This document shows positions 1,850-30,221 of a stretch of 30,221 nucleotides of DNA, one piece after another (the stretch's first letter is position 1; the number at the start of each line of letters is the position of its first letter). Both the position numbers and the translations under genes were made by a program. The stretch lies in the IMG/VR virus record IMGVR_UViG_3300042549_002141, positions 1 to 30,221 of that record. One strand, 5' to 3'. The notes under the pieces are model-generated. The model worked only from the letters and a program-made list of their open reading frames with translations, did not search any database and was not told where the DNA came from. This DNA is from a virus.

Positions 1850-4800
1850 ATGGCAATTCAAACCGCGACCAATCAAGAAACTGGAGAGCGAGTTGCCTTA
1901 GTTAATGGGGAATGGCAACCAATCCTCCAATCCGCAACGAACGCAGCAGGGGCAAAGGCTTTTCTAGTCGGTAATGAGTGGTTGACTGAGGATGCCCCCG
2001 CTACCCCTGCCGCTACAGCACCAGAACAAAAAACTACAGCGAACCCATTTATGGGGGCGATTAGCCGCGCTGCGTCTTTAGCTGGGGCTGGGGTAGGGGC
2101 TGTAGCGGAATCTGCCGAACGCCTTGGCGATAAGCTGGAATTGGCTATGCCATTGTCAGGCATAAGCCCAGAAGATATTAAGAACAAGAAACAACTACAA
2201 CCTCTATTTGACTTGTCTAAGTTTTTACAAAATGCTAGCGATAGCATTGGGTATCAGCCAAGCACACAACTTAAAGAGTTAGGCTCTAATCCGCTTAAAG
2301 CCGTCCCGTTTATCGCAGAGCGCGTAATAACATCCTCCCCCGATATGGTGGCAGCAGTGGGGGTTCTACCCGCATACATCGTGGCGCGGACAAAAGAAAT
2401 CTTGGATGAGCGGGTTAAGAACGATGGGAAAACACTGGATGAAGCTACTGTTGGGGATGTGACCGCAGCAGCAGGTGCGGCAATCGCCGAAGGTACGCTT
2501 GAACGGTTTGCTACTAAGGGGTTGTTTAAACCTACTACTGGGACTACAAAAACTGGACGCATAGCGAAAGAAACAAGTGTTCAGGCGGGCACGGAAGTCG
2601 CACAAGAAGAGTTATCGTATCTAGCAGAAGCTGCGGGTACGAAGAAGGGACTTAGTGCCGAGGAAGCGTTAACTCGCGGTGCGGAAGCTGCTTTAGTTGG
2701 TGGAGGACTCGGTGCTACGGTTCAAGGAGCAAAAGAGGCGCTTGCACCAAAAGCAGTAGCCCCGGACGCAGTAGCCCCCGATGAACGAATTGAACCTACT
2801 TTAGAGGCACAAGATGCGCCAATTCCGCCGACTACGCCAACTACGCCAACAGAAGGGCCACCCGCTAGTCCTAGCGGAGCTATCCCTGAGCCAACTGGAG
2901 CAAGCGTTCCTGTGGTTAGCGAGCCCGGAGCGGCTAGCCCCGCCGAGGGAGTTGCAGGAGTTGAGCCAAGTGGAGTGGTTCCTAGTGCAGAAGATGCTGG
3001 AGGGGCTGCAGCAGGAGAAGGAAATGTACCCGCTTCAGTAGCTCCTGATCTGGCTAGCGTAGCTGCCTTACCTAATACCACGGCTGTATTCCGCACAAAG
3101 CGTGGGTCTACCTATGCCTTCCACAATGATGGGACTACTACGAGAAATCGTAGTGGTGAAGGGCATACTGATACCTCTACTGGTGTGCAGCCTACTTCGG
3201 GTCGTACCATTTTCCTCACGCCCGCTGTTGCAGATCAAATCGGCGGTTTTCTGCAGAACCCCGATATGGGGACTAAGCTAGTCCGTGGTGTTGACGAACA
3301 GGGTCAACCTACGAACAAAGCCAACGTAGTTCTTACCGAAGACTATGGCCCCAAGAAGGCTGGTACGGTACTAACTTCTGTGAACTATAGTAAAGAACCC
3401 CGTCTAGGGTTTCAGCCTGTTGAGATTTGGTCAAGTGAAAGTCCTGTCGGCGATGATGGTAGTGGCATCCACTTTGGCTCTAGTATCACTGAAGTAAAAC
3501 CTGCAACAGAAGTCCTTCAAATGGAGCTACCGCTGAACGGTAAGCCGCCAGAACAACCCACCACAACCACTACTGAGGAAACCGCAAGTGGCACTAAAAC
3601 CCCTGAAGCCCAGCAAACAGAAGCGCAAGGACAAGCAGCCCCCGCTGTTCCCCCAGCAGCAGCCCCACAAGTAGCCCCACCCCCACTCCCTCCTTCTTCC
3701 TTACCTCCTCCACCCCCTCCACCCCCTCCCCCTCCTCCCCCTCCTCCCCCTCCTCCCCCCGATGCTGAGAAAGAACTCGCGGATGATGGGGACTCTGGCG
3801 TCAGCATATTTGAGAAGCTGCGTAAGAGTCGGCTGGGTGAAGAAGGGCCAGAAATCGCAGATGCCCTGCAATCAGGTAACCCCCAGACTTCGATACCCAC
3901 CCTCCGTAGGTTGGTTGATCGTAATTGGGCAAACATGTCCTATGGGTCTATTGAGGCATTGGTAGCGCAGCCTACGTTTACGTTCCTCGCCGACTGGTCT
4001 GGCATCAAGGCTATTGATGATGCTGCTGTGCAACTGCAGGAGATGCACGGGTTCTCACAATCCCTACTTGCAGAAACCCAAGAAGTGCTTGGTGAACTGC
4101 AGAGAGAGCTTAACCCGCTGTTAACGAACCCTAAAGCGTACCGCAAGAAGTTTGAGGATTTGACCTACGGCTCCACCTTGCTGCGGTATGACCCGTCAGA
4201 CCCTGCTTCTACTCCACTAAAGGGGCGAAGCGAACAAGACCTCTCTGATGCGCGTAGGCTTGACCAAATGTACAAGACGATTGGCCCCAAGGGCCAGCAG
4301 ATGTACAAGAACATCAAAGCGCACTACGACAAGATGATTAAGTTGTACTCGGACTTGCTCGATGCGCAAATCCAGCAACTGCCGGGGATGTCGTCTGAGG
4401 CTAAAGAGAACCTCATCAATGTGCTGCGTAAGACGTTTGAAGCAGACGCACGTATCCGTCCGTTCTTCCCGTTGGTTCGCCGAGGAGATTTCTTCCTGCG
4501 TGTAGATGAGATGAAGGGGGCAAAACTTCACACACAGTTTTACATGTACGAGACTATCGGCGACAGGGATAACGCCAAAGCGGACATGATTAACGATAAC
4601 CCTAACGCCAAGATAAGTTCTGGTGAAGGTATATCGCAGCTACGGATTAAGACGTACAAGACCAGCGAGATGCTGACCAAAATCTTTGATGCTATCGACC
4701 AAGAGAACTTTGGGTCAGAGCAAGGTAAAGAGTCGTTGAAGGATGCCATCTATCAGGTCTACCTGAACACGATGCCTGAACAGTCTTTCCGCAATCAGTT

Positions 4801-6781: not shown

Positions 6782-6976
6782 CTAGACTCTCCAGACCCGC
6801 AAGCCCTTGATGCCCTCCTCCACCACGACTCTGGTGACTATGGACATCTTCAGGCGCTTCATTATCTTGGCTAAGGACTTCCTAGCCTCCTCATGGTCTA
6901 TGCAGGGTACGAAGAACGAGTACCCTTTCCTAAACTTAGCCCAATCAATCCGATACGAGACTGTCTCGATTTTCAT
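6782..6976 (-). CDS. Small conserved-type phage protein, unknown function
   Basis: A 64-aa basic protein beginning MKIETVSYRIDW and ending GLRVWRV. The middle reads FFVPCIDHEEARKSLAKIMKRL. A short protein with an FxVPC segment and a C-terminal G(L/I)R(V/I)WR is familiar from other phage replication clusters, but I know no function for it. Its start lies 32 bp inside the end of the primase-helicase gene and no strong Shine-Dalgarno site is visible, so translation may be coupled. It is the last gene before the leftward terminator. Confidence 0.65.
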   Translation of the reverse strand: MKIETVSYRIDWAKFRKGYSFFVPCIDHEEARKSLAKIMKRLKMSIVTRVVVEEGIKGLRVWRV

Positions 6977-9801: not shown

Positions 9802-10041
9802 TTATTTGCGTTTCTTGTGGCACTCTATGAATTGCTTGATGCGGTCATGGTGTGGTGGAGCGGGGGTATTTATCCCCCAAAACCAGTTGTAGATCGTCAT
9901 TCGGCTTACCCCCAGTTCGAGGGCAATCTGTTTGACGGAAACACCGCTATCAATGCACGTTCTGCCCAAGGCTACGCCCAGAGACTCAGCATCCGCTTGT
10001 CTATTAGCTTCAACTAAGTTCTGGCTGTAACCATAGCTCAT
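9802..10041 (-). CDS. Small helix-turn-helix DNA-binding protein
   Basis: A 79-aa protein. The start at MSYGYSQ is chosen because GAGGA lies about 8 nt upstream; a longer in-frame start 21 nt earlier lacks such a site. Residues 36-56 (VSVKQIALELGVSRMTIYNWF) form a typical helix-turn-helix of the resolvase/Cro type, preceded by a helical stretch. It sits two bases after the ssDNA-binding protein gene and directly before the primase. It could be a transcription regulator or an origin-binding accessory factor. It is one of two candidates in the window for binding the repeated CTAAC-N3-GTTAG sites; that link is speculation. Confidence 0.75.
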   Translation of the reverse strand: MSYGYSQNLVEANRQADAESLGVALGRTCIDSGVSVKQIALELGVSRMTIYNWFWGINTPAPPHHDRIKQFIECHKKRK

Positions 10042-10043
10042 GC

Positions 10044-18850: not shown

Positions 18851-18863
18851 CTAACTTTGTTAG
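18851..18863. repeat. Palindrome CTAACTTTGTTAG overlapping a stop codon
   Basis: A perfect copy of the repeated 13-mer. Read on the - strand, its first TAA is the stop codon of the DUF3310 gene (18860-18862). It is the left edge of the dense array between 18.85 and 29.47 kb. Confidence 0.75.
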
Positions 18864-19348
18864 GAACCTAGCAGTGCGTTGATCTCGCGCTCCAAGTACC
18901 ACACGGCCTTCTTGAGGTCCTCGATGCGCGTACCCTTGTGTCCGCTACGGGTTACGTACTTAACCACATTGCCCAAGTTGTAGTTCAAGTCCTTGGCCTC
19001 GATGAAGTCGATAGTCTCGATGCCGCCATACGTGTAGTGCGGTGGCTGGTTCACCATGTCAGGCCCGTAATCCATTACTGGCGCAGGTGGAAGCAGTTGT
19101 GGTTCGCTGTCGATCTGGTCGGTAAGTTTCTTGACGGCAGCGCCGAGTTTGCTCGGGTACTTCTTCTTGGCCTTAGCCTTGACCGCTGGCTTCTTCTTGA
19201 CCCTCGGCTTGACGCCGTGGACCTCACGGTTGAGTACGTATACCTGCGCATACGTAACGTCATACAGCAACGCTACGTTCTGCAAACTGATGTGCGGGCT
19301 CTCCTTGAGGAACGCCCTGATCTCATCCTTCTTCTGGTTAGCCAACAT
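18860..19348 (-). CDS. DUF3310 protein with N-terminal HTH-like region
   Basis: 162 aa. Residues 98-160 (MVNQPPHYTYGGIETIDFI...LGNVVKYVTRSG...DLKKAVWYLEREI) match the DUF3310 family, which includes T7 gp1.7-related proteins linked to nucleotide metabolism. Residues 1-45 look like a small helix-turn-helix (SLQNVALLYDVTYAQVYVLNREVHG) and 48-75 are a Lys/Ala linker. The fusion suggests a DNA- or nucleotide-associated function, but activity cannot be inferred. The start is preceded by AAGGAG and lies 11 bp inside the upstream gene. Confidence 0.8.
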   Translation of the reverse strand: MLANQKKDEIRAFLKESPHISLQNVALLYDVTYAQVYVLNREVHGVKPRVKKKPAVKAKAKKKYPSKLGAAVKKLTDQIDSEPQLLPPAPVMDYGPDMVNQPPHYTYGGIETIDFIEAKDLNYNLGNVVKYVTRSGHKGTRIEDLKKAVWYLEREINALLGS

Positions 19349-19586
19349 ACTCTTCTCCTTCGCTAATGGTTACGTGGTTGAAACCTAACTTTGTTAGGGC
19401 TTGCTCGTTCAGATAGTGGTCCGTCAGAACTTGCCGCATCTTCACTTGCTGATTCTCGAACTGCTTGTAGTAGTCCATTACTTCTCTCGAAAGCCGTAGG
19501 CTGGTGCAGATCAGGGCTGGCTTCTTGCCAAGGCCGCGACCCTTCTTAACTACGGGCAACTTCAACTCTTCAATTCCTGTCGTCAT
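19338..19586 (-). CDS. Small ribbon-helix-helix-like DNA-binding protein (candidate regulator)
   Basis: 82 aa. After a basic N terminus (KKGRGLGKKP), residues 26-58 (ICTSLRLSREVMDYYKQF...QQVKMRQVLTDHYL) fit a beta strand plus two helices as in ribbon-helix-helix or BrnA-antitoxin-like repressors. Proteins of this class bind short palindromes as dimers or tetramers, so it is a natural candidate partner for the CTAAC-N3-GTTAG sites, one of which (19385-19397) lies within its own gene. AGGAGAAGTTAAATG provides a strong start. The fold call is by eye and moderate. Confidence 0.6.
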   Translation of the reverse strand: MTTGIEELKLPVVKKGRGLGKKPALICTSLRLSREVMDYYKQFENQQVKMRQVLTDHYLNEQALTKLGFNHVTISEGEEYVG

Positions 19587-19755
19587 TTAACTTCTCCTGT
19601 GGTAATACTGTATTTGAAGGGCCAAGGACTTTCTCCTCGGTATAGAAACGGTGCAAGTTCCCGCACTCCCGTCTCCTTATGCTTCCCTTCCTCGTCTCTA
19701 ACACTCTGGTCCATGCCCCGCATTGGGGGCATGAAAAACCTTGAGTAGTCTTCAC
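19570..19755 (-). CDS. Zinc-ribbon protein resembling the NrdR N-terminal domain
   Basis: 61 aa with a GTG start preceded by AAAGGA. CPQC (C9, C12), then RKGSIRRRECGNLHRFYTEE with C31 and H35, match the zinc-ribbon pattern of NrdR-like and phage zinc-ribbon proteins; the ATP-cone of true NrdR is missing. It probably binds nucleic acid. The GTG directly follows the upstream TGA, and the end overlaps the next gene by 17 bp. A competing frame over the same bases lacks any pattern. Confidence 0.7.
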   Translation of the reverse strand: MKTTQGFSCPQCGAWTRVLETRKGSIRRRECGNLHRFYTEEKVLGPSNTVLPQEKLNDDRN

Positions 19756-19914
19756 TCATTCCTTTCTCTGCACACCCTGCGCTAGCAGCCATTTGTCTCC
19801 TAGCCGCTGCACAGCCTGTGCCCATTTCAACTGATTCCTGCGGGTCAGGTCATCGGGGATGTAGTCCATCTTCTGCCACAGTCGGCGCGATGTTTTCAAT
19901 AGTTCAACCTTCAT
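19756..19914 (-). CDS. Small phage protein (52 aa), unknown function
   Basis: A short gene read from the gap, with a strong GAGGAGGTGAAAG Shine-Dalgarno before its ATG. It begins MKVELLKTSRRLWQKMDYIP and continues with RRNQLKWAQAVQRLGDKWLLA. It is basic, helical and tryptophan-bearing. The pattern RR(L)W...iP.dl.RRNq..W..AV..LGdkWL is familiar from other phage genomes, without function. It overlaps the previous gene by 11 bp. Confidence 0.68.
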   Translation of the reverse strand: MKVELLKTSRRLWQKMDYIPDDLTRRNQLKWAQAVQRLGDKWLLAQGVQRKE

Positions 19915-20773
19915 CTTTCACCTCCTCAAGAATGAGAATAAAAGTCTCGTCGTTGATGCGGCATCCGGTGTCGGTCACGAACTGCTCGGCCTCCACCAAC
20001 TTGAGCATACCCAACTTGCCGCGCATCTCTTGGGGGAGCGTATTGTCATCGTACAAATCCACTTTGTCACCTACTTTGACAATATATTTCCCACCGTCTT
20101 TGATGACCAGCACGGCCTTGCCTTCGTTGAAATGATCTCGGACTTTCTGGATGGTCAGCATCTCGACGCCAAGCCTAACTTTGTTATCTATCCCTTCCAA
20201 AGTGTCCCTAGTCTTCTGTGTGTCCTGAGACTTCAGCCAAGTAACGAACACATCGAACCCCTCCTCCTTGACGTACTGATTAGAGACACGTTCGATCTTG
20301 GCTTCGACCTCACGTATCTGTGCCCACTTGTGGTTGCTGGCGGTGTTGGTAACCTCGGCGGCTTTGGCGGCTGCTACGGCTACACGTTCGTTGGTACTCA
20401 TAGACCCGAACATCTTCTTCACCTTGAGCACAGCCTTATCGGTGTCGGTGGTCTTGTACCTGTCGCTACGCAACAACTTATCCGAGATGCGCTTGTTCTT
20501 GACGAAGACACAGTAATTCCTACCGTGCCAGTCATAGCCAATCTCTCCAAGTTTCTCCCCGTCCTTCTGCACCGAGAACTCGATCACCTGAGTACTGTTT
20601 GCTTTGAAAGCAATGAAGTCCCACAGAGGTTTGTCTGTGGCTAACTTAGTTATGACAGTACTCAGCATAAAAGAAACCTCGAATGGCTTCTCCCCGTTAG
20701 CCTCTCGTTGAGTGTTCTTCTCTGCGAGTTTTGGTGTAAAGCGCACGTTGGTGTTATTGATGTCAAGTACCAT
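19904..20773 (-). CDS. Conserved-type phage protein, 289 aa, unknown function
   Basis: The start MVLDINNTNVRF at 20773 is set by AGGAGAAATGAAATG, a variant of the recurring leader. The first 130 residues look beta-rich, with DKPLWDFIAFKAN and YDWHGRNYCVFV; the middle (residues 140-230) is helical; the last 60 are beta-rich with KVGDKVDLYDD. No catalytic motif is recognised. Two copies of the palindrome (20175, 20641) lie inside it. It sits in the middle of the P1 unit. Confidence 0.7.
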   Translation of the reverse strand: MVLDINNTNVRFTPKLAEKNTQREANGEKPFEVSFMLSTVITKLATDKPLWDFIAFKANSTQVIEFSVQKDGEKLGEIGYDWHGRNYCVFVKNKRISDKLLRSDRYKTTDTDKAVLKVKKMFGSMSTNERVAVAAAKAAEVTNTASNHKWAQIREVEAKIERVSNQYVKEEGFDVFVTWLKSQDTQKTRDTLEGIDNKVRLGVEMLTIQKVRDHFNEGKAVLVIKDGGKYIVKVGDKVDLYDDNTLPQEMRGKLGMLKLVEAEQFVTDTGCRINDETFILILEEVKDEG

Positions 20774-20774
20774 T

Positions 20775-21020
20775 TCATTTCTCCTGATGTTGCTGATTAC
20801 CACTTGGATATGGGAAGTACATCTCTGTACGCTCGATCTCGTATTCGAGTTCCGTACGTCCCTCGGCTCCATCCCTTTCTTCAAGTATCCGCATAGAACG
20901 CTCGGCGTCGTCCTCCTGTAGATAGACATGCTGCACCCATCCGTTCTCGGTCTTGACCTTCGGGCATACCCATAGTAGATATACATAGCACCACCCACAC
21001 TCTAGATTGCTCTCTGACAT
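20775..21020 (-). CDS. Small phage protein, unknown function
   Basis: 81 aa from MSESNLECGWCYVYLLWV, with the recurring AGGAGAAACGAAATG leader setting the start. It is acidic and ends TEMYFPYPSGNQQHQEK. No domain recognised. The stop sits inside the Shine-Dalgarno region of the next gene. Confidence 0.65.
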   Translation of the reverse strand: MSESNLECGWCYVYLLWVCPKVKTENGWVQHVYLQEDDAERSMRILEERDGAEGRTELEYEIERTEMYFPYPSGNQQHQEK

Positions 21021-21034
21021 TTCGTTTCTCCTTT

Positions 21035-21898
21035 TTACCACTCGAACTTGCCAAGGATCGCATCGACCTTGGACTTCACGTTGCTACGTGTGTCTGCATC
21101 TTCCTTGATCCTTTCAATGTCGGTAGATAACATTGTTACTTCCAACTGTCGCCGTGCCTCCTCCAACTTGGGATCGTTGGTGACGTTGAGTTTGGTCAAC
21201 AACTCGCACAACTCAAGCGGGTTGGTGATGAGCGAGTCGTAGTAACGCTTCTTGGGTACGTCGCTATCCTCATCGGTGTCGTCGGTCAACTTCTCGCTGA
21301 TGCCCGTGAGCATCTTGTGCAGCCGATCCCACGGAGCCTTCATCGCCTCGGCCAACCGCTCGTTGAACTTCTCCTCATACGCTGCCTGAATCTCGATCAA
21401 GTCCTGCGCTGGTATGTCCAAGCGGAAGTCGCCAGCATCCGACAACGGATTCGTTGAGCGACGGAACCCGAACTTGCATCGCACTTCATCAAGTGGCGGG
21501 TAGTCCTCGGCCTTGAACAACTTGCCCAGATTGGTGGGTGCTTCCGAAACCAGACGCGGGTACTCGGCGTAAAAGTTATTACACATAGCGTGGAACTGAG
21601 ACTCGAACGAGTTCATGGCAGTCTTGTACTCCATGAACACCTTGGTAGGTGCAAGCCTCTCACCCTTGTCTGCCCACGGCAGCGTGTTGAGGTTGTGGTA
21701 CAGCCGGACACGGGCAGCGAACTTCTCGATGTCCTTACGCAAGCCCGTACCTGCGAACAGGTTCTTCTTAGTCTGGCTTGCGTTCGACACTGCTGATGCG
21801 TCGAAGTTAACCCTGTCGGTAGTCTCGCGGTCGATCTTGCTTGCGGGCCACACACTGATGTTCAATTCCACTAATACTGCTGATGCGCTAATAGACAT
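21035..21898 (-). CDS. DUF3150-like protein of the MoxR/VWA module
   Basis: 287 aa from MSISASAVLVELNISVWPAS, with AGGAG 6 nt before the ATG; a start two codons upstream is less well placed. Features include FAARVRLYHNLNTLPWADKGERLAPTKVF, FYAEYPRLVSEAP and DYPPLDEVRCKFGFR, in the style of the DUF3150 family. That family commonly accompanies a MoxR-type ATPase and a VWA protein in phages and plasmids, as it does here. Role unknown, perhaps as substrate or adaptor of the ATPase. It contains a palindrome at 21127-21139. Confidence 0.62.
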   Translation of the reverse strand: MSISASAVLVELNISVWPASKIDRETTDRVNFDASAVSNASQTKKNLFAGTGLRKDIEKFAARVRLYHNLNTLPWADKGERLAPTKVFMEYKTAMNSFESQFHAMCNNFYAEYPRLVSEAPTNLGKLFKAEDYPPLDEVRCKFGFRRSTNPLSDAGDFRLDIPAQDLIEIQAAYEEKFNERLAEAMKAPWDRLHKMLTGISEKLTDDTDEDSDVPKKRYYDSLITNPLELCELLTKLNVTNDPKLEEARRQLEVTMLSTDIERIKEDADTRSNVKSKVDAILGKFEW

Positions 21899-21942
21899 AA
21901 TCATCTCCTATTTGGGGTCCTTGACTTTTCTCTCTAACAATG

Positions 21943-22110
21943 TTAGGCGGGTTGCTCGGAGTCGAACACTTCCTCGATCCAAACACGGGTCGCGCCCGTG
22001 TCCAACCGCATACCCTCGCAGTCCTGACCGATCTCCTCGATGATGAGGTCGGCCTCGGGCGAGTCGGCATCGTCGATGCCAGCAAATTCAAACACAACTA
22101 CTACTTTCAT
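21943..22110 (-). CDS. Small acidic phage protein (55 aa), unknown function
   Basis: A short gene found in the gap, with the recurring AGGAGAAACGAA leader before ATG. MKVVVVFEFAGIDDADSPEADLI opens a beta strand and acidic helix; the end is RVWIEEVFDSEQPA. The stop TAA is supplied by the palindrome CTAACAATGTTAG at 21934-21946. A longer competing frame in this region is Arg/Ser/Thr-rich and lacks a start site. Confidence 0.68.
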   Translation of the reverse strand: MKVVVVFEFAGIDDADSPEADLIIEEIGQDCEGMRLDTGATRVWIEEVFDSEQPA

Positions 22111-22142
22111 TTCGTTTCTCCTGATGATCTAACATTGTTATC

Positions 22143-22171
22143 GCACGGTAACAGCCCATCCGTTACCGTGC
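22143..22171. repeat. Perfect 10-bp inverted repeat between two small genes
   Basis: GCACGGTAAC (22143-22152) and GTTACCGTGC (22162-22171) around a 9-nt loop, in a 71-bp gap that also holds a palindrome copy at 22129-22141. There is no U tract, so it may be an RNA-stability, processing or weak attenuation hairpin, or a protein site. Confidence 0.7.
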
Positions 22172-22181
22172 ATCTTGGGTG

Positions 22182-22406
22182 TTACTTCTCTGGCTTGCCA
22201 GCCAACTTCGCCATGCGATAGAGGTCATCGCTAATCAACTTAGCGGTGAGAGCCTCGGTGTTGGGGTATACGTGATGAGTGTTCTCCCCACCCCCACTCA
22301 CGTACTTGGACTCATACTTCTCTGACTTCTGAAGTATCTCCATCACAACGAGAGCATCCTTGGGGGACATAACGTACTCCCCGTATCCGAATGAAATCAC
22401 TATCAT
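22182..22406 (-). CDS. Small phage protein (74 aa), unknown function
   Basis: From MIVISFGYGEYVMSPKDALVVMEIL, with AGGAGAAACGAAA before the ATG. It continues with a helical block (KSEKYESKYV), a loop ENTHHVYP and a C-terminal helix ending AKLAGKPEK. No known function. It ends 71 bp before the next small gene, an unusually long gap for this cluster. Confidence 0.68.
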   Translation of the reverse strand: MIVISFGYGEYVMSPKDALVVMEILQKSEKYESKYVSGGGENTHHVYPNTEALTAKLISDDLYRMAKLAGKPEK

Positions 22407-22419
22407 TTTCGTTTCTCCT

Positions 22420-23685
22420 TCAGTCTTTAACGTGAACTGTTTTGCCGTTAGGCGCAACGACAGTGTTACCCCCCACGATGGTCCAGAGTACTGGAGCCGT
22501 CCATCCGTGACCCCAATCCGAACCCACGTGACCATCGGTGAGGATGATGATGCACTCGGGGACAATCTTCTTGTTATCCAAGAAGGAAGAGATGCAACTC
22601 GGCGAAGTACCTCCACCACCCTTAGGGCGGGTTGAACTAACAATGTTAGCGACATCCCCATCTCCCTCGTACTCTTCGTGTGCTGCTACTTCTGAGTCCC
22701 AATAGATCAGATCAACCTTGTCCGGGTTGACTTCCTCGGCCACGCCCTTGACTTCCGACAGGAACTCGTTCAACTCCTTGTCGCCAATGGAACCTGACGT
22801 ATCAATAGCGATGACCAAGTGGCCCACCTTCTCACCGATCAGGCTCGGCATATACACATCCCCGCTGAGGAAGCGACGATTCACCCTACGCCATGAGGAC
22901 GTATCCTTAGCAGAGCAGGTGGACTTCACGAACTCGCGGAGGACTTCGCGCCAGTCGATCTTCGGCTCCATCAAGTCCTGCAACTCGCGGCTCATACCAC
23001 CCGCGCCCTTGCCCACCTTCTTCTCAGCCATCAAGCCTTGACGGATTGCTTGGTCAACTTCGCGCTCCAACTGCTTGCGCTCCTCGGGGGTCATATCACC
23101 AGCGCCATCCCAGTCGTGGTCGTCTAGACCAGCACCGTCCTTCGGCTTGCCCGGAACTCGCCCACTTCCGTCAACGGGAGGCCCATCTCCGTCCTCGGGT
23201 TTCCCGTCCCCGCCCCCACCCTCTTGCTCCTCCTTCTTGAGAATGTCGAACACCTGCTTGGCGTTCATCCCCTTGAACCGAGTGTCGATCAGACCCATCG
23301 GCTTACCCTTCATCGGGCCATCCTTGATCTTGGGCATCACGATGGTGTCGCCGTTCGGGTCGATCTCCAACAACATGAGGTTGATAACGTAGTCACAGGC
23401 TTGGTTGGCAAGGCTGTGGTTCTCGTCGTGCAACTTCTTCCACGTGGTGAGGTGGCGCAGCGCCTTGTGCAATGCTTCGTGCAGTACTACGAAGCACAAC
23501 TCCTTATCGGAGAGGTCCTTGACGAACTCCCTGCCGTACTTCTCATCCCGTCCGTTGGTCGATGCGGTTGCGATGTTGTCTACGATGCTGGTCTTACCCA
23601 CCATCAGGATGCCCGACCACAGGGCGAACTTCGGATTACGCATCAGGCTGATCTTGGCCTTCTGCAGTTTGCGTTCTTCTAACAT
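22420..23685 (-). CDS. Metallopeptidase/VWA-domain protein (partner of MoxR-type ATPase)
   Basis: 421 aa. VVLHEALHKALRHL carries an HExxH zinc-peptidase motif (H69, E70, H73). A Gly/Pro/Asp-rich linker spans about 154-195. A VWA-type domain follows with the metal-ion-dependent adhesion site DTSGS (D295, S297, S299), T360 and LTDG (T383-D384). This DUF2201-like architecture pairs with MoxR ATPases. The combination could mature or remodel a protein complex, cut host proteins, or act in defence. The ATG lies inside a palindrome (23679-23691) and AAGGAG precedes it. Confidence 0.82.
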   Translation of the reverse strand: MLEERKLQKAKISLMRNPKFALWSGILMVGKTSIVDNIATASTNGRDEKYGREFVKDLSDKELCFVVLHEALHKALRHLTTWKKLHDENHSLANQACDYVINLMLLEIDPNGDTIVMPKIKDGPMKGKPMGLIDTRFKGMNAKQVFDILKKEEQEGGGGDGKPEDGDGPPVDGSGRVPGKPKDGAGLDDHDWDGAGDMTPEERKQLEREVDQAIRQGLMAEKKVGKGAGGMSRELQDLMEPKIDWREVLREFVKSTCSAKDTSSWRRVNRRFLSGDVYMPSLIGEKVGHLVIAIDTSGSIGDKELNEFLSEVKGVAEEVNPDKVDLIYWDSEVAAHEEYEGDGDVANIVSSTRPKGGGGTSPSCISSFLDNKKIVPECIIILTDGHVGSDWGHGWTAPVLWTIVGGNTVVAPNGKTVHVKD

Positions 23686-23691
23686 TGTTAT
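23679..23691. promoter_or_regulatory. Palindrome CTAACATTGTTAT covering a start codon
   Basis: On the - strand it reads ATAACAATGTTAG, and its internal ATG is the start codon of the metallopeptidase/VWA gene; the Shine-Dalgarno AAGGAG lies immediately upstream. A bound protein or a hairpin would mask translation initiation. Confidence 0.65.
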
Positions 23692-23882
23692 TACTCCTTG
23701 TTTGCTAACTCAACCATTGCCATTGCTATTGGCATCTCTGACTCAGATGGGAACTCAACCAGCACCTCGTACCAGTCGTCGTACCCTCCCTCCCCCGTAG
23801 TACGGCAGACTTGAACTGGGTGTGGATATATCGACACACCCTTTGTCATCTTGTACCGTGCCCATAATCGCTGCTTTCTCAC
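23691..23882 (-). CDS. Small phage protein, unknown function
   Basis: 63 aa from a GTG that overlaps the HNH stop by 4 bp (GTGA), with AAGGA 6 nt upstream; an internal ATG at MTKGVSIYPH would give 52 aa. GGYDDWYEVLVEFPSESEMPIAMAMVELANKE forms the end. No domain recognised. Its stop lies in the Shine-Dalgarno of the VWA gene. Confidence 0.6.
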   Translation of the reverse strand: MRKQRLWARYKMTKGVSIYPHPVQVCRTTGEGGYDDWYEVLVEFPSESEMPIAMAMVELANKE

Positions 23883-24487
23883 AGCAAGTCCTTACCGTGC
23901 TTGTGCCGGTAGGCAATACCTTCGGGGGTAATCCCCGCGAGCCGCGCCCACTCAGCCTGTGTTCTGGTTTCCCCGTTATATGTAATGTTCACGTTGCTAC
24001 TCCTGTTGTTCGCTTGCTCTTGATTTGTTGCCCACCTAACATTGTTAGGTTCGTAGTTACCGTCGTTGTCTATGCGGTCAAGGCTATGACGGTCAGTTGG
24101 GCGGTTGCCTACATCAACCAAGAAATGCTCGAAGTTATTGCGCCATCTATCGCATACAGTGATCCCTCTCCCCCCGTATCGGGGGTATGCGTAATGTGTT
24201 TTCACATAGCAACGTAGTTTCATGCTCGCCCATCTGTAGTACTCAGGTGTACCGTGCATACCATGTGTAGTAGCCGCTTTGCGTAGGTTCCCCGCTGCCA
24301 ACTCTTTTTGTGCGCAGCCACAACTTGCAGTTACCCCCATACGTAAACTACTACCCGCCACTACACATGTGGCCCCACAAATACAAGCACATACCCATGC
24401 GGGCTTCCCGTAAATGTTGGTCTCTGCGCGGGATACAACAGTTAGCCGCCCAAAACACTTACCACATAGGTCAACGAACCTACCCAT
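23879..24487 (-). CDS. HNH homing-type endonuclease inserted in the MoxR/VWA module
   Basis: 202 aa from MGRFVDLCGK, AGGAGG 5 nt upstream. An N-terminal Cys-rich part (C33, C35, C37, C41, C56, C58) is a probable zinc finger. The HNH core includes YGGRGITVCDRW, HSLDRIDNDGNYEPNNVRWATNQEQANNR. A C-terminal block (NITYNGETRTQAEWARLAGITPEGIAYR) resembles NUMOD/IENR-type DNA-recognition repeats. Free-standing HNH enzymes of this type are mobile, and this one splits the MoxR and VWA genes. The palindrome at 24036-24048 lies within the PNNVRW codons of the HNH core. Confidence 0.85.
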   Translation of the reverse strand: MGRFVDLCGKCFGRLTVVSRAETNIYGKPAWVCACICGATCVVAGSSLRMGVTASCGCAQKELAAGNLRKAATTHGMHGTPEYYRWASMKLRCYVKTHYAYPRYGGRGITVCDRWRNNFEHFLVDVGNRPTDRHSLDRIDNDGNYEPNNVRWATNQEQANNRSSNVNITYNGETRTQAEWARLAGITPEGIAYRHKHGKDLL

Positions 24488-24496
24488 AAACACCTC

Positions 24497-25561
24497 CTAA
24501 AGTACATCTTGGTTAAGGGCAACCCAATCGGCAAACGCCTTGCTGCTGAACGCAATGCTTTGCTTAGTTGGGGCTTTGGCTATGTTAACACAAAACACAG
24601 CCTGCCATTCCATTTCGAACCGCTCCAGATACTCCATGAATGGAGCGATGGTGGCCTTGTCGATACGTGCGATAGCACCAAAGCACACGATGGCACATGC
24701 TGCTGGTGACGTAGGCACAGCCGTGGTCTTCGGGTTCTTGATCGTCGCCTCCCACGTTGGGAGTTGGTCCGAGAACTCGATGTACGCTTGCATGTCCCGT
24801 GCTGCAGACTCCCCCACTGCACCAGTCAACGCAGCGATAACGCTGTCGGCGTCGTTCAGGTCCCGTGTCCTAACAATGTTAGAGGCAGTCTCCAACGAGC
24901 GGGGGGTGACGAACCCATTCTGGGTTTTGCGTGGGTGGTAGATGTAGGGGTTGTCCCCTTGGGCAGCATCGGTGTAACTCGCAAGTGCGTGCGGGTACTG
25001 ATTCACCCAAGCGATGACCTCGGCCTCGATGCCCTTGTTGATGGCCCACTCGATCCACTCATCGGCTGTGGGTTTGGATACGGTGACAGTCACAAGCCTG
25101 TTGCGGGAGTGCGCTTTGAGGTTGTCGCCCACACCATCGGACGACAGGTTGCCCGTCAAGAACCTATACGTACCCTTGGGCAGAGAGATGTCGCCAAGGC
25201 GAGGGTTCGCCTTCTCCAACATCGGATGCAACATGTTTTTTACTGGGTCAGCGCCCTTGCTGAACTCGTCGAGCATGATGACCATAGGTCTTCCGGTATG
25301 GATACCGAACCTAGCGTTCGGATAGTACCTAGTAACCTTGTTGTCGTGATCTATCACGGGCATCGCAATGTCGCCCAAATCCATATTGGGTACGTCAATA
25401 TACGCATAGTCACAGCCCGTCTGTGCAGCGATGCTCTCAAGCAAGGAAGACTTGCCGATCCCCGGCTCGCCTTGCAGGAAGAACACAGTCTCGGGGTTCG
25501 TAACGATGAGCCGTGCGGCTTGCTTGAGGGTGACGGTCTTGCCAAAGTTGATCTCAGCCAT
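24497..25561 (-). CDS. MoxR-type AAA+ ATPase
   Basis: 354 aa. Walker A GEPGIGKSS (K37), Walker B VIMLDEF (D98-E99), sensor 1 LTGN (N138) and the arginine-finger region HSRNRLV (R153, R155). After about residue 170 comes a helical lid. MoxR ATPases act with VWA proteins as chaperones or metal inserters, and this gene lies upstream of the metallopeptidase/VWA and DUF3150-like genes. AGGAG precedes the ATG, and the gene is first in the unit driven by P1. One palindrome (24870-24882) is inside. Confidence 0.88.
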   Translation of the reverse strand: MAEINFGKTVTLKQAARLIVTNPETVFFLQGEPGIGKSSLLESIAAQTGCDYAYIDVPNMDLGDIAMPVIDHDNKVTRYYPNARFGIHTGRPMVIMLDEFSKGADPVKNMLHPMLEKANPRLGDISLPKGTYRFLTGNLSSDGVGDNLKAHSRNRLVTVTVSKPTADEWIEWAINKGIEAEVIAWVNQYPHALASYTDAAQGDNPYIYHPRKTQNGFVTPRSLETASNIVRTRDLNDADSVIAALTGAVGESAARDMQAYIEFSDQLPTWEATIKNPKTTAVPTSPAACAIVCFGAIARIDKATIAPFMEYLERFEMEWQAVFCVNIAKAPTKQSIAFSSKAFADWVALNQDVL

Positions 25562-25601
25562 TTCTAATACTCCTAATTACGGCCAACGGCCTACTAACAA
25601 A

Positions 25602-25614
25602 CTAACAATGTTAT
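25602..25614. promoter_or_regulatory. Palindrome CTAACAATGTTAT in the P1 leader
   Basis: It lies about 60 bp downstream of the P1 -10 box and 40 bp before the MoxR-type gene. The equivalent copy for P2 is at 28676-28688. The arrangement fits repression or transcription roadblock just after the start site. Confidence 0.65.
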
Positions 25615-25645
25615 TGCGGGGACCATTCCCCCAACAACTTCCTCC

Positions 25646-25730
25646 ACTAACAACTTAAATTCCCACTTAACCTATAGTATACCACAAATAGGGTCTAATG
25701 TCAAGTAAATTGTGGTGCGAATCGTTGGTG
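25646..25730. repeat. Promoter-bearing direct repeat, copy 1
   Basis: About 85 bp almost identical to 28711-28793: both share the blocks CTAACAACT, AATTCCCACT, ATAGTATACCACAAATA, GGTCTAATGTCAAGTAAATT and ATCGTTGGTG. Each contains a strong - strand promoter, so the repeat is a duplicated control module. Differences are mainly around the -10 downstream bases. Confidence 0.85.
25676..25704 (-). promoter_or_regulatory. Strong sigma70-type promoter P1
   Basis: -35 TTGACA (25699-25704), 17-bp spacer, -10 TATACT (25676-25681) on the - strand, preceded by an AT-rich AATTTAC stretch that could be an UP-like element. It drives the MoxR-to-DUF3310 unit. Confidence 0.88.
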
Positions 25731-25751
25731 TTCGGTTGGTGTTCCCCCTAC

Positions 25752-26912
25752 TTAAATGCGTGTCGAAGTCTTCTTGTACTCAGCCTCAAGCACATCGGCC
25801 TTCGCAACCGCTTCGGTGTCGTACATCCACATCCAGTTGGTGTAGACCTTGTTCGGGGGCATCCCGTCCTTGAGCACTACGGCTTCCAAGATAGCCTTAG
25901 AGAAGTACATCTTCAGCAACTTCTCGAAGTTCGAGCGCAGCGTGGCGGTGTCCACGTTCTTCACCACCGCTGGGTCCTCGGCTCGATGCGAGTTGTGGAG
26001 GTGCTGGTGTGGGTAGACCGTCATAAGAATCACGAACGCCTTGTAGAAGTTCGAGTGTTTAGTGTCCTCGGGCTGATCGTTCTTGATGAGGTCGAAGAAC
26101 TCCCTGCACTTGGTGTCGTACTGATCTATCCACTGCACGTACGTGTTCCATCCTTGTGGGCGCATTTGAGGTATGGGTTTCTGGAACAGCATGTTCCACC
26201 TGTTGTCCAGCCTGATGAGTCCCGAGTCCTGAATAGTCCCAATCACATCAATAGCCTCACCGATGGTGTACTCGATGGCCTCAAAGTAACTTGGCTGGGA
26301 GGCGTAGTACCCACGCACTTCCACTTGCTCCTTGCGTAGGGATATCGATGCCTTGAAGTACTTGATGAACTCAGAATACCGCCGCCTAACATTGTTATTC
26401 TGCGAGCGGTTGATGGCGTAGCCGTAGATGACTGGCTTGGTGTCTGCGTCGAAGGCGAGGAGAACTGGCGGGGTCTTTGAGCCGGGTTCTTGTGGGGCAC
26501 AGCGCAGCACCAACCCAGTCGGCGGGATGATGGACTTGGGGTTCTTCTCGGGGGTGGGCGTGTTGATCTCAAGCACGGTTTTCCCCCCCTTGGCGTAGCA
26601 AGTGACGCACAGGATTGTGCCGATGAACTCACGGGTGGTGTTTGTGCCCCACCTCTCCAACTTGACGATGATGCGCCCGTCCTGCTTGAACGTGATTACT
26701 GGCGTGGTGTAGAGCAAAAACTCTACGTCTGTTGCATCCGTCTTACCCGCACGAACGGAGTACGTACTAACATTGTTACGCGCACCCAGAGGGATCATCC
26801 CCGCATTACACCCGCTGCCCCCGATAGGCTTGGTGGTGTTGAGCAAGCGCAAGGCACGTTTGTACTCATGCACTCGCGGAAGGTATCGCATGGTTGAACA
26901 ATTTCCCCACAT
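25752..26912 (-). CDS. Large phage protein of unknown function (386 aa)
   Basis: Started by AGGAGAAACGAAATG. The first 180 residues look beta-rich (TDVEFLLYTTPVITFKQDGRIIVKLERW, FIGTILCVTCYAKGGKTVLEINTP). The rest is helical with many aromatic residues (GWNTYVQWIDQYDTKCREFFDLI). No catalytic motif is recognised, and the composition suggests an intracellular early protein. It lies just upstream of P1 and holds two palindromes (26386, 26767). The gene may be expressed from P2 and run through P1. Confidence 0.7.
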   Translation of the reverse strand: MWGNCSTMRYLPRVHEYKRALRLLNTTKPIGGSGCNAGMIPLGARNNVSTYSVRAGKTDATDVEFLLYTTPVITFKQDGRIIVKLERWGTNTTREFIGTILCVTCYAKGGKTVLEINTPTPEKNPKSIIPPTGLVLRCAPQEPGSKTPPVLLAFDADTKPVIYGYAINRSQNNNVRRRYSEFIKYFKASISLRKEQVEVRGYYASQPSYFEAIEYTIGEAIDVIGTIQDSGLIRLDNRWNMLFQKPIPQMRPQGWNTYVQWIDQYDTKCREFFDLIKNDQPEDTKHSNFYKAFVILMTVYPHQHLHNSHRAEDPAVVKNVDTATLRSNFEKLLKMYFSKAILEAVVLKDGMPPNKVYTNWMWMYDTEAVAKADVLEAEYKKTSTRI

Positions 26913-26923
26913 TTCGTTTCTCC

Positions 26924-27040
26924 TTAGTTGATGATGAAAGTAATACGCTTATCTGCTGCCTTGCGGCGTTTCCAGTAGGGCAGTGCCCACTCTAGGTTCG
27001 TCTCGATGACGATCAGTTTTTTGTTGAAGAAAACTAACAT
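26924..27040 (-). CDS. Small basic phage protein (38 aa), unknown function
   Basis: A short gene found in the gap. MLVFFNKKLIVIETNLEWAL opens a basic, aromatic peptide ending KRITFIIN. Its start ATG lies inside the palindrome CTAACATTGTTAG and its stop lies in the next gene's Shine-Dalgarno. GAGGGGG lies 7-8 nt before the ATG. The stop of the previous gene is also in this palindrome. Confidence 0.55.
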   Translation of the reverse strand: MLVFFNKKLIVIETNLEWALPYWKRRKAADKRITFIIN

Positions 27041-27046
27041 TGTTAG
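27034..27046. promoter_or_regulatory. Palindrome CTAACATTGTTAG joining a stop and a start codon
   Basis: On the - strand CC-TAA-CA-ATG-TTAG: the TAA (27043-27045) ends the 98-aa gene and the ATG (27038-27040) starts the 38-aa gene. Both codons are thus built from one copy of the repeat, an unusual coupling of a DNA motif with translation. Confidence 0.6.
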
Positions 27047-27339
27047 GCCCCCTCTTGCTCATTGACAGCACTCAAGCCGCCATCGAGGTCGATCTCTTGG
27101 TTGTCTTCATCCCAATCGCGCACACTATCTTCCATGCTGGTGAGAGTCTCCTCCACCTCCATGTACTCGCATGGGTACACAAGCCACTTAACGGAAGAGA
27201 GTTCGGGGTTGATATGTGCCGCTGCCCGCTTGGTGAACTCAATGGCCTTCTCACTAGTGCGGAACGCATAGAACCACGTGGGCTCTTCCACTCCCTTGTT
27301 GAACCCCACGGCTACCCACGATGTATGTCGTTGCTTCAT
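27043..27339 (-). CDS. Small phage protein (98 aa), unknown function
   Basis: Started by AGGAGAAACGAAATG. MKQRHTSWVAVGFNKGVEEPTWFYAFRTSEKAIEFTKRAAA suggests a small alpha/beta fold; the C-terminal 30 residues are very acidic (SMEDSVRDWDEDNQEIDLDGG). The acidic tail could mimic nucleic acid or bind a partner. Unknown function. Its stop is in a palindrome. Confidence 0.68.
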   Translation of the reverse strand: MKQRHTSWVAVGFNKGVEEPTWFYAFRTSEKAIEFTKRAAAHINPELSSVKWLVYPCEYMEVEETLTSMEDSVRDWDEDNQEIDLDGGLSAVNEQEGA

Positions 27340-27596
27340 TTCGTTTCTCCTTCGTAATTGCGCACGAGGTGCTCGGCTTCCTTGAATTGCTTGTACACAT
27401 TAGCGTATGCAGTACGCACCACCTTAGCGTCTTCGTCCGTTGCTTCGAGGTGGCGCATGTACTCAAGCACGAACTTCTCCATGTGTTCGAGTTGGCTCTT
27501 TATTTCGAGCAGTTTGAGTGCGGCATCCCTGTGCTTGATTGACTTGGGCCTCCATTGCGTTGGGAACATCAGTTCGTCTTTCGGTACGAAAATCAT
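27336..27596 (-). CDS. Small helical phage protein, unknown function
   Basis: 86 aa from MIFVPKDELMFPTQW, preceded by AGGAGTAACGAG, a variant of the common leader. Residues 25-80 form a long helix pair with coiled-coil tendency (AALKLLEIKSQLEHMEKFVLEYM, KVVRTAYANVYKQFKEAEHLV). The stop overlaps the next start (ATGA). Confidence 0.65.
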   Translation of the reverse strand: MIFVPKDELMFPTQWRPKSIKHRDAALKLLEIKSQLEHMEKFVLEYMRHLEATDEDAKVVRTAYANVYKQFKEAEHLVRNYEGETK

Positions 27597-27600
27597 CTCG

Positions 27601-27819
27601 TTACTCCTTGTATTGACGGCGACCACCGCCTTCGCTAGTGACCCATGCGAACAGGTCAAAGGCATCCGCATAGACGATGGTTGATTTGAACGGGCCTTCC
27701 CACTCGAACTCTGTGTACTCCTCCATCTTGGCTAGGCACTCCTTCTTGGTCTTGCTAACAATGTTGTAGCAGGGGGAGTCAGACTCCTGCGTTGCTATCC
27801 AGTAGGTCAGTTTAGGCAT
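27601..27819 (-). CDS. Small phage protein (72 aa), unknown function
   Basis: From MPKLTYWIATQESDSPCYNIVSK, with GGAG 6 nt upstream. Helical middle (KKECLAKMEEYTEFEW) and DAFDLFAWVTSEGGG near the end. The N-terminal LTYWIA...D...Y.I..KTKKE pattern is familiar to me from other phages but has no known function. A degenerate palindrome lies at 27755-27767. Its start overlaps the upstream TGA (TGATG). Confidence 0.68.
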   Translation of the reverse strand: MPKLTYWIATQESDSPCYNIVSKTKKECLAKMEEYTEFEWEGPFKSTIVYADAFDLFAWVTSEGGGRRQYKE

Positions 27820-27902
27820 CACGTTCTCCAGTAAAAAAGGTCGAACACCACCACCACCACGGCAGCGATCCAATACACCGCACACAAAACACGATCACTC
27901 AT
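27819..27902 (-). CDS. Tiny predicted membrane peptide (27 aa)
   Basis: A very short frame between two genes: MSDRVLCAVYWIAAVVVVVF plus DLFYWRT, a single hydrophobic helix with a run of five GTG valine codons. AGAGG lies upstream, and TAA-ATG and TGATG junctions join it to both neighbours. Such junctions support translation, but its short length makes this uncertain. If real, it is a bitopic or toxin-like membrane peptide. Confidence 0.48.
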   Translation of the reverse strand: MSDRVLCAVYWIAAVVVVVFDLFYWRT

Positions 27903-28196
27903 TTAGCACCTCTCGTTCATGTCGAAGTTCTCAAGGTCACGCCCACGCTGCTTCCAGTCAAGGGGCACGGTGTTCTTGGGATTCAACTGGGCTAACATTG
28001 TTAGGTTGCCGGGACTAACGTACACGTAGTTCGACTTGTTCATCGGCACGATGGTGTGCTTGACCTTACGTGCTGCATCCTCCCCGCAGCACATACACAA
28101 GACGTAACCGAGGCTTAGGCGCTCGGAACTCACATCGTCCCCGCACAAGGGGCACTCGGACCAATCAAGGTTGCGGTTGTTCACTCGGTTGTTCAT
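27903..28196 (-). CDS. Small zinc-finger-like phage protein, unknown function
   Basis: 97 aa from MNNRVNNRNLDWSECPLCGD, with GGAGGCTACGAA before the ATG. CPLC (C15, C18) and CMCC (C34, C36, C37) make a probable zinc knuckle, followed by TIVPMNKSNYVYVSPGNLTMLAQLNPK, a motif I recall from other phages. No function known. A palindrome (27992-28004) encodes the LTML residues. Confidence 0.72.
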   Translation of the reverse strand: MNNRVNNRNLDWSECPLCGDDVSSERLSLGYVLCMCCGEDAARKVKHTIVPMNKSNYVYVSPGNLTMLAQLNPKNTVPLDWKQRGRDLENFDMNERC

Positions 28197-28396
28197 TTCG
28201 TAGCCTCCATGTACTCGCCTCTCTTGCCCGTCAGGTATCCGAACGGGAGCGTGTCGCAATACGCAACCCATTCCTCTGGTGCAATGTCAGGGTCGCCACC
28301 ATTGGGCTTGTAGATACTGTGATACCAAGAAAGGAACTCTCGTTCGAGTTCGTGCTTGGTCAGTTTGCGCTTGGCGTGATTGCGTCGGTCAATCAT
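28193..28396 (-). CDS. Small phage protein (67 aa), unknown function
   Basis: From MIDRRNHAKRKLTKHELERE, with GAGGAG 7 nt upstream. Basic helix, then FLSWYHSIYKPNGGDPDIAPEEWVAYC. The stop overlaps the next start (ATGA). No domain recognised. Confidence 0.62.
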   Translation of the reverse strand: MIDRRNHAKRKLTKHELEREFLSWYHSIYKPNGGDPDIAPEEWVAYCDTLPFGYLTGKRGEYMEATK

Positions 28397-28407
28397 GGTG
28401 TGTCTCC

Positions 28408-28647
28408 TCAGACAGTAAAGGTGAAGCTGACCCTAACAAAGTTAGAGCAGTCGTTGCCCACGCGCACGTGGTAGATGTACAGGGGCAAGCGTGAGGAGAC
28501 TGAGTAGGGCAGTGAACGGCAGATAGCCCACAGGCTACGCACGATGGGGTTGCTGGTTCTGAGGATCATGCTGAAGGGTGGCGGTGCTTCCCCGATGATC
28601 GGGTGGGTGACTGGGTTACGCATTGCAGGGCGGCGAGTCTTGTTCAT
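28408..28647 (-). CDS. Small phage protein (79 aa), unknown function
   Basis: From MNKTRRPAMRNPVTHPIIGE, with AGGAGTAACGAA before the ATG; it is the first gene after P2. SNPIVRSLWAICRSLPYSVSS is moderately hydrophobic, and the end, SNFVRVSFTFTV, is beta-like. A palindrome (28433-28445) encodes the SNFVRV codons. Its stop sits in the Shine-Dalgarno of the next gene. Confidence 0.6.
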   Translation of the reverse strand: MNKTRRPAMRNPVTHPIIGEAPPPFSMILRTSNPIVRSLWAICRSLPYSVSSRLPLYIYHVRVGNDCSNFVRVSFTFTV

Positions 28648-28675
28648 TTCGTTACTCCTAATGGTTGAGACACTT

Positions 28676-28688
28676 CTAACAAAGTTAG
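28676..28688. promoter_or_regulatory. Palindrome CTAACAAAGTTAG in the P2 leader
   Basis: It lies about 50 bp downstream of the P2 -10 box and 29 bp before the first gene. Another copy lies upstream of the promoter at 28842-28854, so P2 is flanked by two sites on either side. Confidence 0.65.
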
Positions 28689-28710
28689 GTCGGGCGGATT
28701 CCAAACCTAA

Positions 28711-28793
28711 CTAACAACTAAATTCCCACTACACATATAGTATACCACAAATAAGGTCTAATGTCAAGTAAATTAGGGTGCAAATCGTTGGTG
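28711..28793. repeat. Promoter-bearing direct repeat, copy 2
   Basis: About 83 bp nearly identical to 25646-25730, including the promoter, the AATTTAC upstream segment and the trailing ATCGTTGGTG. Identity is high on both sides of the promoter boxes, so the module was probably duplicated, not converged. Confidence 0.85.
28739..28767 (-). promoter_or_regulatory. Strong sigma70-type promoter P2
   Basis: -35 TTGACA (28762-28767), 17-bp spacer, -10 TATACT (28739-28744) on the - strand. It drives the small-gene train from 28647 leftward. Confidence 0.88.
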
Positions 28794-28849
28794 GGTTGGG
28801 CGCGTGAATCGGGCGTGTTTTGGGGGTGGTTCGGGTTGGCACTAACATT

Positions 28850-29505
28850 GTTACGTTTCTGGAATTCGGTGAGAACGGTTCTCAACAACTCAAAAAAACG
28901 TAACTTACTACAGATAGGTTGAATTTCGGGGTTTGGCGGTTTTCGGGGGCAGAATGGGGGTGTGGGCTGCGTTACGTTTGGCGCGTTATGCTTTTGGGGC
29001 AAAGTTACGGGGGAAAAAGGCGAACGTAACGGAAAACGTAACGAGACATCGCCATATAAATCAACGACTTAGAAGTGAAAAAACGGTAAAGTTACAATGT
29101 TATGTTTTTTAAAGAATATATATATATCCCGCCGCTGGGTCGGAACGGTGGTATGAATTGCGCTTGCCGTCCGTTATGCTTTTTTCCGGCTGGTGGACTT
29201 TCATACATTTTTCTGAAATCCGTAACTTTGTAACTTATCAATGCTGACAAGGACTTAGCGCAATGTGTGGCGTAACAAAGACACTATTTCCGTAACTTTT
29301 GACCACAAAAGCGTAACGCGCACGTTTGGGCCCGAACTAACAATGTTAGTGCTGCTGCGCTGCTACATGTATATGTTGCCCCCGCCGAAAACGTAACGAT
29401 GCACAATGCGCTACGTTGCTAGCCGCAGCCGCCGCGCAGAGAACTGGCGGCGCGTAACATTGTTAGCCCTACGCTGGCTTGAGCAGCACGCCACGCAAAC
29501 GTAAC
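28850..29505. repeat. Cluster of 13 CGTAAC/GTTACG hexamers
   Basis: CGTAAC starts at 28899, 29025, 29037, 29221, 29271, 29291, 29312, 29392, 29453 and 29500; GTTACG at 28850, 28971 and 29004. Chance predicts about 0.3 in 656 bp. Ten share one orientation. Two coincide with copies of the larger palindrome (28842 and 29454), so the hexamer may be a half-site relative. Confidence 0.82.
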
Positions 29506-29548
29506 GGAGCATCCCAACGGTTGGAGCAGCCGCCGCACAGAGAACTGG
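29425..29548. repeat. Pair of 23-nt direct repeats
   Basis: The segments at 29425-29447 and 29526-29548 are identical apart from one base (GCAGCCGCCG, G/A, CAGAGAACTGG). They flank the last two CGTAAC sites and the palindrome at 29454-29466. Confidence 0.8.
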
Positions 29549-29599
29549 TAGCGCAAGGGTAAGCATAAGAACTGGTAGAGAACTGGTAAGGAACTGGTA
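29542..29599. repeat. GAACTGGTA short tandem repeats
   Basis: GAACTGGTA occurs at 29542, 29569, 29580 and 29591, the last three with an 11-bp period, which is close to a helical turn and puts the sites on one face of the DNA. Confidence 0.8.
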
Positions 29600-29620
29600 A
29601 AAGATTAGGGTAAACCATTA

Positions 29621-29822: not shown

Positions 29823-30074
29823 TCAGTCAGCCGAATTCTCGACTTCGTTGTCCCGCTTTTCGCACTCGCGCCAGAAGCGGGTAGTCATCCCCCTACGGAC
29901 GGACTCGAGGAAAAAGATGGCAGTCAGCCGACGATCCGGACGATCCCCGCAATCCATCGCGGCCATCTGGCCCTCGGTCAGCATATCCATGCACCGCTCA
30001 AGTGTGGCAATCCGGATTTCGCGCGCAGCGTGCGAACCCGTGGCAATATGGAATTCGAAAAGTTTCTTTGGCAT
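29823..30074 (-). CDS. Small phage protein (83 aa), unknown function
   Basis: From MPKKLFEFHIATGSHAAREI, GGAG 8 nt upstream. Helical middle (TLERCMDMLTEGQMAAMDCG) and basic second half (RRLTAIFFLESVRRGMTTRFWREC). No domain recognised. It is followed by the 29.78-kb terminator, so it belongs to a unit extending beyond the window. Confidence 0.65.
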   Translation of the reverse strand: MPKKLFEFHIATGSHAAREIRIATLERCMDMLTEGQMAAMDCGDRPDRRLTAIFFLESVRRGMTTRFWRECEKRDNEVENSAD

Positions 30075-30131: not shown

Positions 30132-30221
30132 TCAGCCCAGATCGTCGACGTTACCGCCGAGCAGCTCGAACGCTTCGATCAGCAGACCCTTTGCTTCGCT
30201 GGCAAGGTCGCACTCTTTCGA
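30132..30221 (-). CDS. 3' end of a gene extending beyond the window
   Basis: The last 29 codons and stop of a - strand frame open to the window edge: KECDLASEAKGLLIEAFELL then GGNVDDLG. Helical and acidic. Too short to identify. It lies 57 bp upstream of the 83-aa gene. Confidence 0.55.
   Translation of the reverse strand, partial: SKECDLASEAKGLLIEAFELLGGNVDDLG

Follow-up and report, generated by a model that had tools for sequence, protein, structure and literature searches.

Most of what is known about stoperator-like control comes from temperate actinobacterial phages, whose sites are asymmetric. Cluster A mycobacteriophages such as L5 and TipsytheTRex possess more than 20 sites of 13 bp over the genome, at promoters and elsewhere, whose number is similar between relatives while their sequence differs between immunity types, and the L5-type binder has about 180 aa (PMC9283540, PMC6550527). 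These traits are shared by the phage described here, whose candidate binder comprises ~170 aa. For the T1-like phages TLS and Stevie, regarded as lytic, 21-22-nt direct repeats were reported in about 16-21 conserved copies, mostly near gene starts; their function is unknown and the authors compare them to stoperators (PMC11447400, PMC4319613). As to replication, the lambda origin with its O protein and the satellite PLE with its RepA protein (PMC7145576) share with the locus presented below non-coding repeats accompanied by an AT-rich stretch, and phage-encoded replication genes.

The analysed DNA (the window) is a 30,221-base IMG/VR virus record of an uncultured freshwater (lake) phage. Its early genes are located on the minus strand and encode a DUF927 primase/helicase, a DNA polymerase, an exonuclease, a DNA helicase and HNH enzymes. 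Upstream of these replication genes, the first of which starts near position 28648, a gap of about 1.1 kb (28.7-29.8 kb), non-coding on the early-gene strand, extends to a small gene at 29823-30074. The following features are relevant:

28850..29505, unstranded: putative iterons, a CGTAAC/GTTACG cluster of 13 copies (counts, shuffles; conserved in G008, G011 and G009; alignment)
29072..29247, unstranded: conserved AT-rich core between two TAAGTCSTTG elements, with an AT run at 29100-29127 (sequence; alignment of 11 sequences)
29248..29257, minus: TAAGTCCTTG element, copy 1, present in the putative origins of both iteron clades
29062..29071, minus: TAAGTCGTTG(ATTTATA) element, copy 2 (origin alignment comparison)
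29425..29600, minus: repeats of the CCAGTTCYCTGTGCGGCGG type flanking the cluster on its far side (29425-29453, 29526-29554; shorter ones at 29566-29600)
28739..28767, minus: early promoter P1, TTGACA-17-TATACT (sigma-70-like promoter scan)
29823..30074, minus: small gene, 83 aa, between candidate regulator and putative origin; no family found
30132..30221, minus: candidate site-binding protein, C-terminal 29 codons, cut by the contig end (identified by full-length relatives)
6945..9800, minus: primase/helicase, 951 aa, DUF927, candidate initiator (domain match)
9802..10062, minus: small HTH_3-like protein, 86 aa, disfavoured as palindrome binder

The 83-aa gene is followed by a terminator-like hairpin (29804-29782). 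An Rfam search for structured RNA in 27.8-30.2 kb gave no match, nor did a comparison of 20-30 kb of the window with annotated phages at the DNA level. The CCAGTTCYCTGTGCGGCGG-type repeats occur in one to three copies on the matching side in most CGTAAC-type relatives, and CCAGTTCYCTGTGCGGCGGTAG-like repeats, usually 1-3 copies, were noticed in the stretch separating the small gene from the iterons in the window (29425-29600) and in L046, L048, L058, L062, L068 and L069. Some further genes deserve mention. The gene of the 86-aa helix-turn-helix protein directly precedes the primase gene and is kept in nearly all relatives tested. A MoxR-like AAA ATPase is encoded near a DUF2201 metallopeptidase/VWA protein among the early genes (22420-25561), a pair resembling chaperone-type ATPase/VWA systems, and a 1623-aa protein (1850-6721) resembles DarB-like antirestriction and polyvalent proteins.

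The initial annotation had described 28850-29505 as a cluster of thirteen hexamers in non-coding DNA, mostly in one orientation and next to an AT-rich run, against an expectation of about 0.3. Exactly 13 CGTAAC/GTTACG were counted in these 656 bp, and the segment is indeed non-coding on the early-gene strand. None of 2000 dinucleotide shuffles of the 656 bp reached 13 hexamers (mean 0.88, maximum 4), and in 12 shuffles of the whole window the count of any hexamer per 656 bp did not exceed 6. The excess is beyond doubt, even though the expectation had been set a little low. The AT-rich run is present, but it is located inside the cluster (29100-29127), and the orientation bias (ten CGTAAC on the plus and three on the minus strand) can be refined to two arrays opposed about the AT-rich core. 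With the sequences aligned in the early-gene direction, the window and three relatives contain 21 GTTACG to the left and 7 to the right of the core, and 1 CGTAAC to the left and 16 to the right (Fisher p = 7e-6, to be taken as a guide only since the sequences are related). Clustered short repeats in non-coding DNA are typical of iteron origins. The spacing of the repeats is irregular and their orientations are opposed, as distinct from regularly spaced direct repeats, and the cluster is therefore termed iteron-like and not a canonical array.

Relatives were collected via the primase and via the protein encoded beside the putative origin. At the matching place, G008 (primase identity 90%) contains 14 hexamers in 600 bp, G011 (73%) 11 and G009 (65%) 7. 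Over this range of primase identity (65-90%), the locus recurs with opposed GTTACG/CGTAAC arrays around the AT-rich core and with the TAAGTCSTTGATTT element. The core can be aligned in 11 sequences and is both AT-rich and conserved in relatives, as expected for an unwinding region. The TAAGTCSTTGATTT element is present in one or two copies which, if there are two in CGTAAC-type phages, lie about 190 bp apart, in direct orientation in the window and G008, inverted in G011, G009 and L068. In a clade with 51% primase identity (G012, G014, G015, G019), the CGTAAC repeats are replaced at this locus by TATTAGA/TCTAATA repeats, with 8 copies in 460 bp of G012 versus 1 in the other 18 kb, and 9 copies in 600 bp of G014. 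The element is retained in this clade as TAAGTCSTTGATT, and TAAGTCSTTGATTT is common to both iteron clades. A swap of repeats at a fixed place is what origin repeats co-evolving with their initiator would be expected to look like. As iteron type and the tested core genes (primase and presumed small terminase) share one phylogeny, the swap alone does not single out the initiator. Pseudomonas phage Rollin, the isolate with the closest primase (28.7% identity), shows no dispersed palindromes and no iteron cluster in the early region, and a search of genome contigs for a prophage or host revealed no primase relative.

The motif account of the initial annotation had left out a second element, the palindrome TAACWWWGTTA. 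The window contains 24 copies, of which 21 fall within 18.8-29.5 kb, inside and between early genes. The reversed pattern gave 0 matches in the window. Half of the copies have the full 13-bp form CTAAC-WWW-GTTAG. Sites (unstranded, by motif scan) and the second promoter are as follows:

28677..28687: palindrome TAACAAAGTTA, 51 bp past the -10 box of P1
25603..25613: palindrome TAACAATGTTA, 62 bp past the -10 box of the second promoter
25676..25704, minus: second promoter, TTGACA-17-TATACT, within the duplicated P1 region (94 bp)
28843..28853: palindrome where the repeat cluster borders on the early genes
29338..29348 and 29455..29465: palindromes within the cluster
18852, 19386, 20176, 20642, 21128, 21935, 22130, 22638: dispersed TAACWWWGTTA in 18852..28444, first half
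23680, 24037, 24871, 26387, 26768, 27035, 27993, 28434: the same, second half
5155, 11388, 15208: three further TAACWWWGTTA

At alignable places, the palindromes were kept in 13 of 14 cases in G008, 13 of 16 in G011 and 23 of 23 in G012-G014, while only 38%, 15% and 39% of all 11-mers, respectively, stayed identical, a slightly unlike comparison since the centre of the palindrome was free to vary within W. The spacer of the palindrome divides the relatives into classes. Only 3-bp spacers (21-28 sites, none with 4 bp) were found in the window, G008, G011, G012, G014, G015 and G019, and only 4-bp spacers in G024, G026, G027, L071 and L072, for which counts refer to the available loci. G009 and G025 mix 3-bp and 4-bp spacers (6/13 and 3/8). 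A 1-bp change of the spacer at all sites hardly admits an explanation other than a dimeric DNA-binding protein with changed geometry.

Iterons and palindromes are decoupled. Palindromes are present in the G012 clade, from which CGTAAC clusters are absent; conversely, G005 has GTAACA/ATGTTA iterons but essentially no palindromes, and GGGTTAACCC-like sites, considered there as an alternative operator, number only 4-6 in its genome, too few for a claim. This decoupling argues for each motif being read by a protein of its own. It also bears on an alternative, according to which the cluster is a regulatory region composed of half-sites of the palindrome-binding protein, controls the early promoter and contains no origin. 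CGTAAC and CTAAC both contain TAAC, two of the 13 hexamers (28850 and 29453) overlap copies of the palindrome, and the cluster adjoins P1. The double dissociation between the G012 clade and G005 argues against this alternative, as does the fact that CGTAAC is common to phages with 3-bp and 4-bp spacers; moreover, most hexamers are located hundreds of bp away from the promoter, around the AT-rich core. It is therefore regarded as unlikely. The initial annotation had left the choice between an iteron origin and a control region. An iteron origin appears to be the best-supported reading of the CGTAAC cluster, while the control function is plausible for the CTAACWWWGTTAG palindrome, which is spread across the entire early region and is decoupled from CGTAAC.

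The reading as an iteron origin relies on the conserved cluster and core, the exchange of repeats between clades, the AT-rich non-coding site upstream of replication genes and a nearby skew minimum. Accordingly, 28.7-29.8 kb would be a replication-origin and control locus, in which CGTAAC/GTTACG may act as iterons bound by a phage initiator in two opposed arrays. The candidate initiator is most likely the primase/helicase encoded at 6945-9800, or a partner of it. In phage P4, the alpha protein, a large primase/helicase, serves as initiator, and this is also the likeliest kind of initiator here. It is conceivable that the initiator melts the AT-rich core and that replication starts there. Cumulative GC skew, which had been proposed as a check, has its minimum 1.3-2.6 kb from the repeats in six near-complete relatives. 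In G011, the raw and the circular-corrected minima flank the locus, each at a distance of about 2 kb. However, the minimum lies mostly beyond the regulator gene, on the side where transcription diverges, and may reflect transcription; it is supporting evidence and not proof.

Repeat clusters also occur at phage packaging sites, and the cluster might be a pac or cos site for the small terminase subunit, the presumed terminase genes being about 2 kb away and the divergent genes next to the locus in G008 and G005 looking terminase-like by our own reading. On the other hand, the presumed small-subunit gene has no PHROG match, the cluster is situated on the early-gene side past two genes, with an AT-rich core and a skew minimum nearby, and the assemblies of four relatives carry a short repeat at their ends, which fits a circular map, so that no fixed ends are visible. 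A packaging site is thus quite improbable.

In seven genomes, 74 of 168 palindromes touch non-coding DNA versus 27 expected, and 73 are at most 70 nt upstream of a start versus 25 expected, both figures being based on a simple gene caller. For 26 of 37 sigma-70-like promoters, a palindrome was detected 20-110 bp downstream, compared to 10% at random places, and all 26 lie 42-84 bp downstream of the -10 box. This position is beyond the transcription start, which suggests a roadblock rather than a classic operator. The promoter region itself is duplicated (94 bp, 25646-25739 versus 28710-28800, 88% identical), with a palindrome after each copy. Intrinsic terminators as the reason for the palindromes were rejected by sequence inspection only, as the stem is AT-rich and just 5 bp long and most copies have no T run. 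Many near-identical sites over lytic genes are characteristic of stoperators and are found here as well. CTAAC-WWW-GTTAG is the predicted site of a second, dimeric DNA-binding protein, recurring at intervals of about 500 bp across the early genes, and the bound protein may turn down the early operon as a roadblock or stoperator. The plasmid-prophage N15 has dispersed centromeres, but a corresponding partition or compaction array, for which the scattering of the sites inside and between genes speaks, is very unlikely, as no ParB_N match was found in any of 14 records and the sites are concentrated in the early region at a preferred distance past -10 boxes.

The palindrome binder is probably a new protein of about 170 aa (A2 protein), encoded next to the putative origin. 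A2 proteins (~165-210 aa) are encoded directly beside it in palindrome-bearing phages; in the G012 clade, two copies of the gene beside the origin were observed (L050:545-1066 and 2364-2891). G005, which lacks palindromes, possesses an unrelated protein at this place in two tandem copies (L082), and a relation between this and the A2 protein was looked for but not supported. The assignment is based on location and co-occurrence, essentially on the one contrast with G005, and is the weakest step of the argument. No Pfam or PHROG family was assigned to A2 at a convincing score. Structure models are nearly all helical (mean pLDDT 77 and 74.5), and searches with them yielded weak matches only and no significant structural relative. 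The A2 lineage does not simply follow the spacer class, since the protein of G011 (spacer 3) is nearer to the spacer-4 proteins than to that of G008 (spacer 3). The 86-aa HTH_3 protein was rejected as binder: its recognition helix tracks neither palindrome presence nor spacer, and G005 has the protein but no palindromes. Neither a tyrosine integrase (PF00589) nor ParB (PF02195) was detected in 14 records, several of them near-complete, in a search confined to these two families. A purely lytic lifestyle is likely, and the palindromes would then most likely serve an early-to-late switch or exclusion and not lysogeny.

Taken as a whole, an iteron-type origin with clade-specific initiator sites, combined with a separate palindrome through which one protein would silence the early block, is the rather probable explanation of the sequence data. 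More tentatively, and with somewhat greater doubt than trust, it can be proposed that a new family of ~170-aa proteins binds two dozen palindromes across the early genes of phages without integrase and that the spacer length changed genome-wide between 3 and 4 bp, in one direction or the other, via mixed intermediates that have survived. The relatives would then document in nature how the specificity of an operator set shifts over a whole genome.

Compared to known iteron origins, the repeats described here are short (6-8 bp) and irregularly spaced, and form two opposed arrays spanning about 650 bp; their sequence is exchanged between clades, and the initiator is a candidate only. If correct, the locus would provide a first replicon for this lineage of uncultured freshwater phages and would allow initiators to be paired with their sites. 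The repeats of TLS and Stevie are asymmetric, follow transcription and lie about 76 bases upstream of starts, whereas the sites described here are palindromic and situated downstream of promoters. Unlike L5-type sites, which are asymmetric and oriented with transcription, the site is palindromic and orientation-free with a spacer of 3 or 4 bp, more than half of the copies are inside genes, no integrase was found, and for the candidate binder neither a relation nor a known fold is detectable. With an oriented asymmetric site missing and neither integrase nor ParB found, the system is classified as stoperator-like and not as an L5-type member. If this holds true, it would represent a palindromic version of such control in phages with no detected integrase, and the spacer classes (3, mixed, 4) would open a way to examine the joint change of about 25 sites and their binder.
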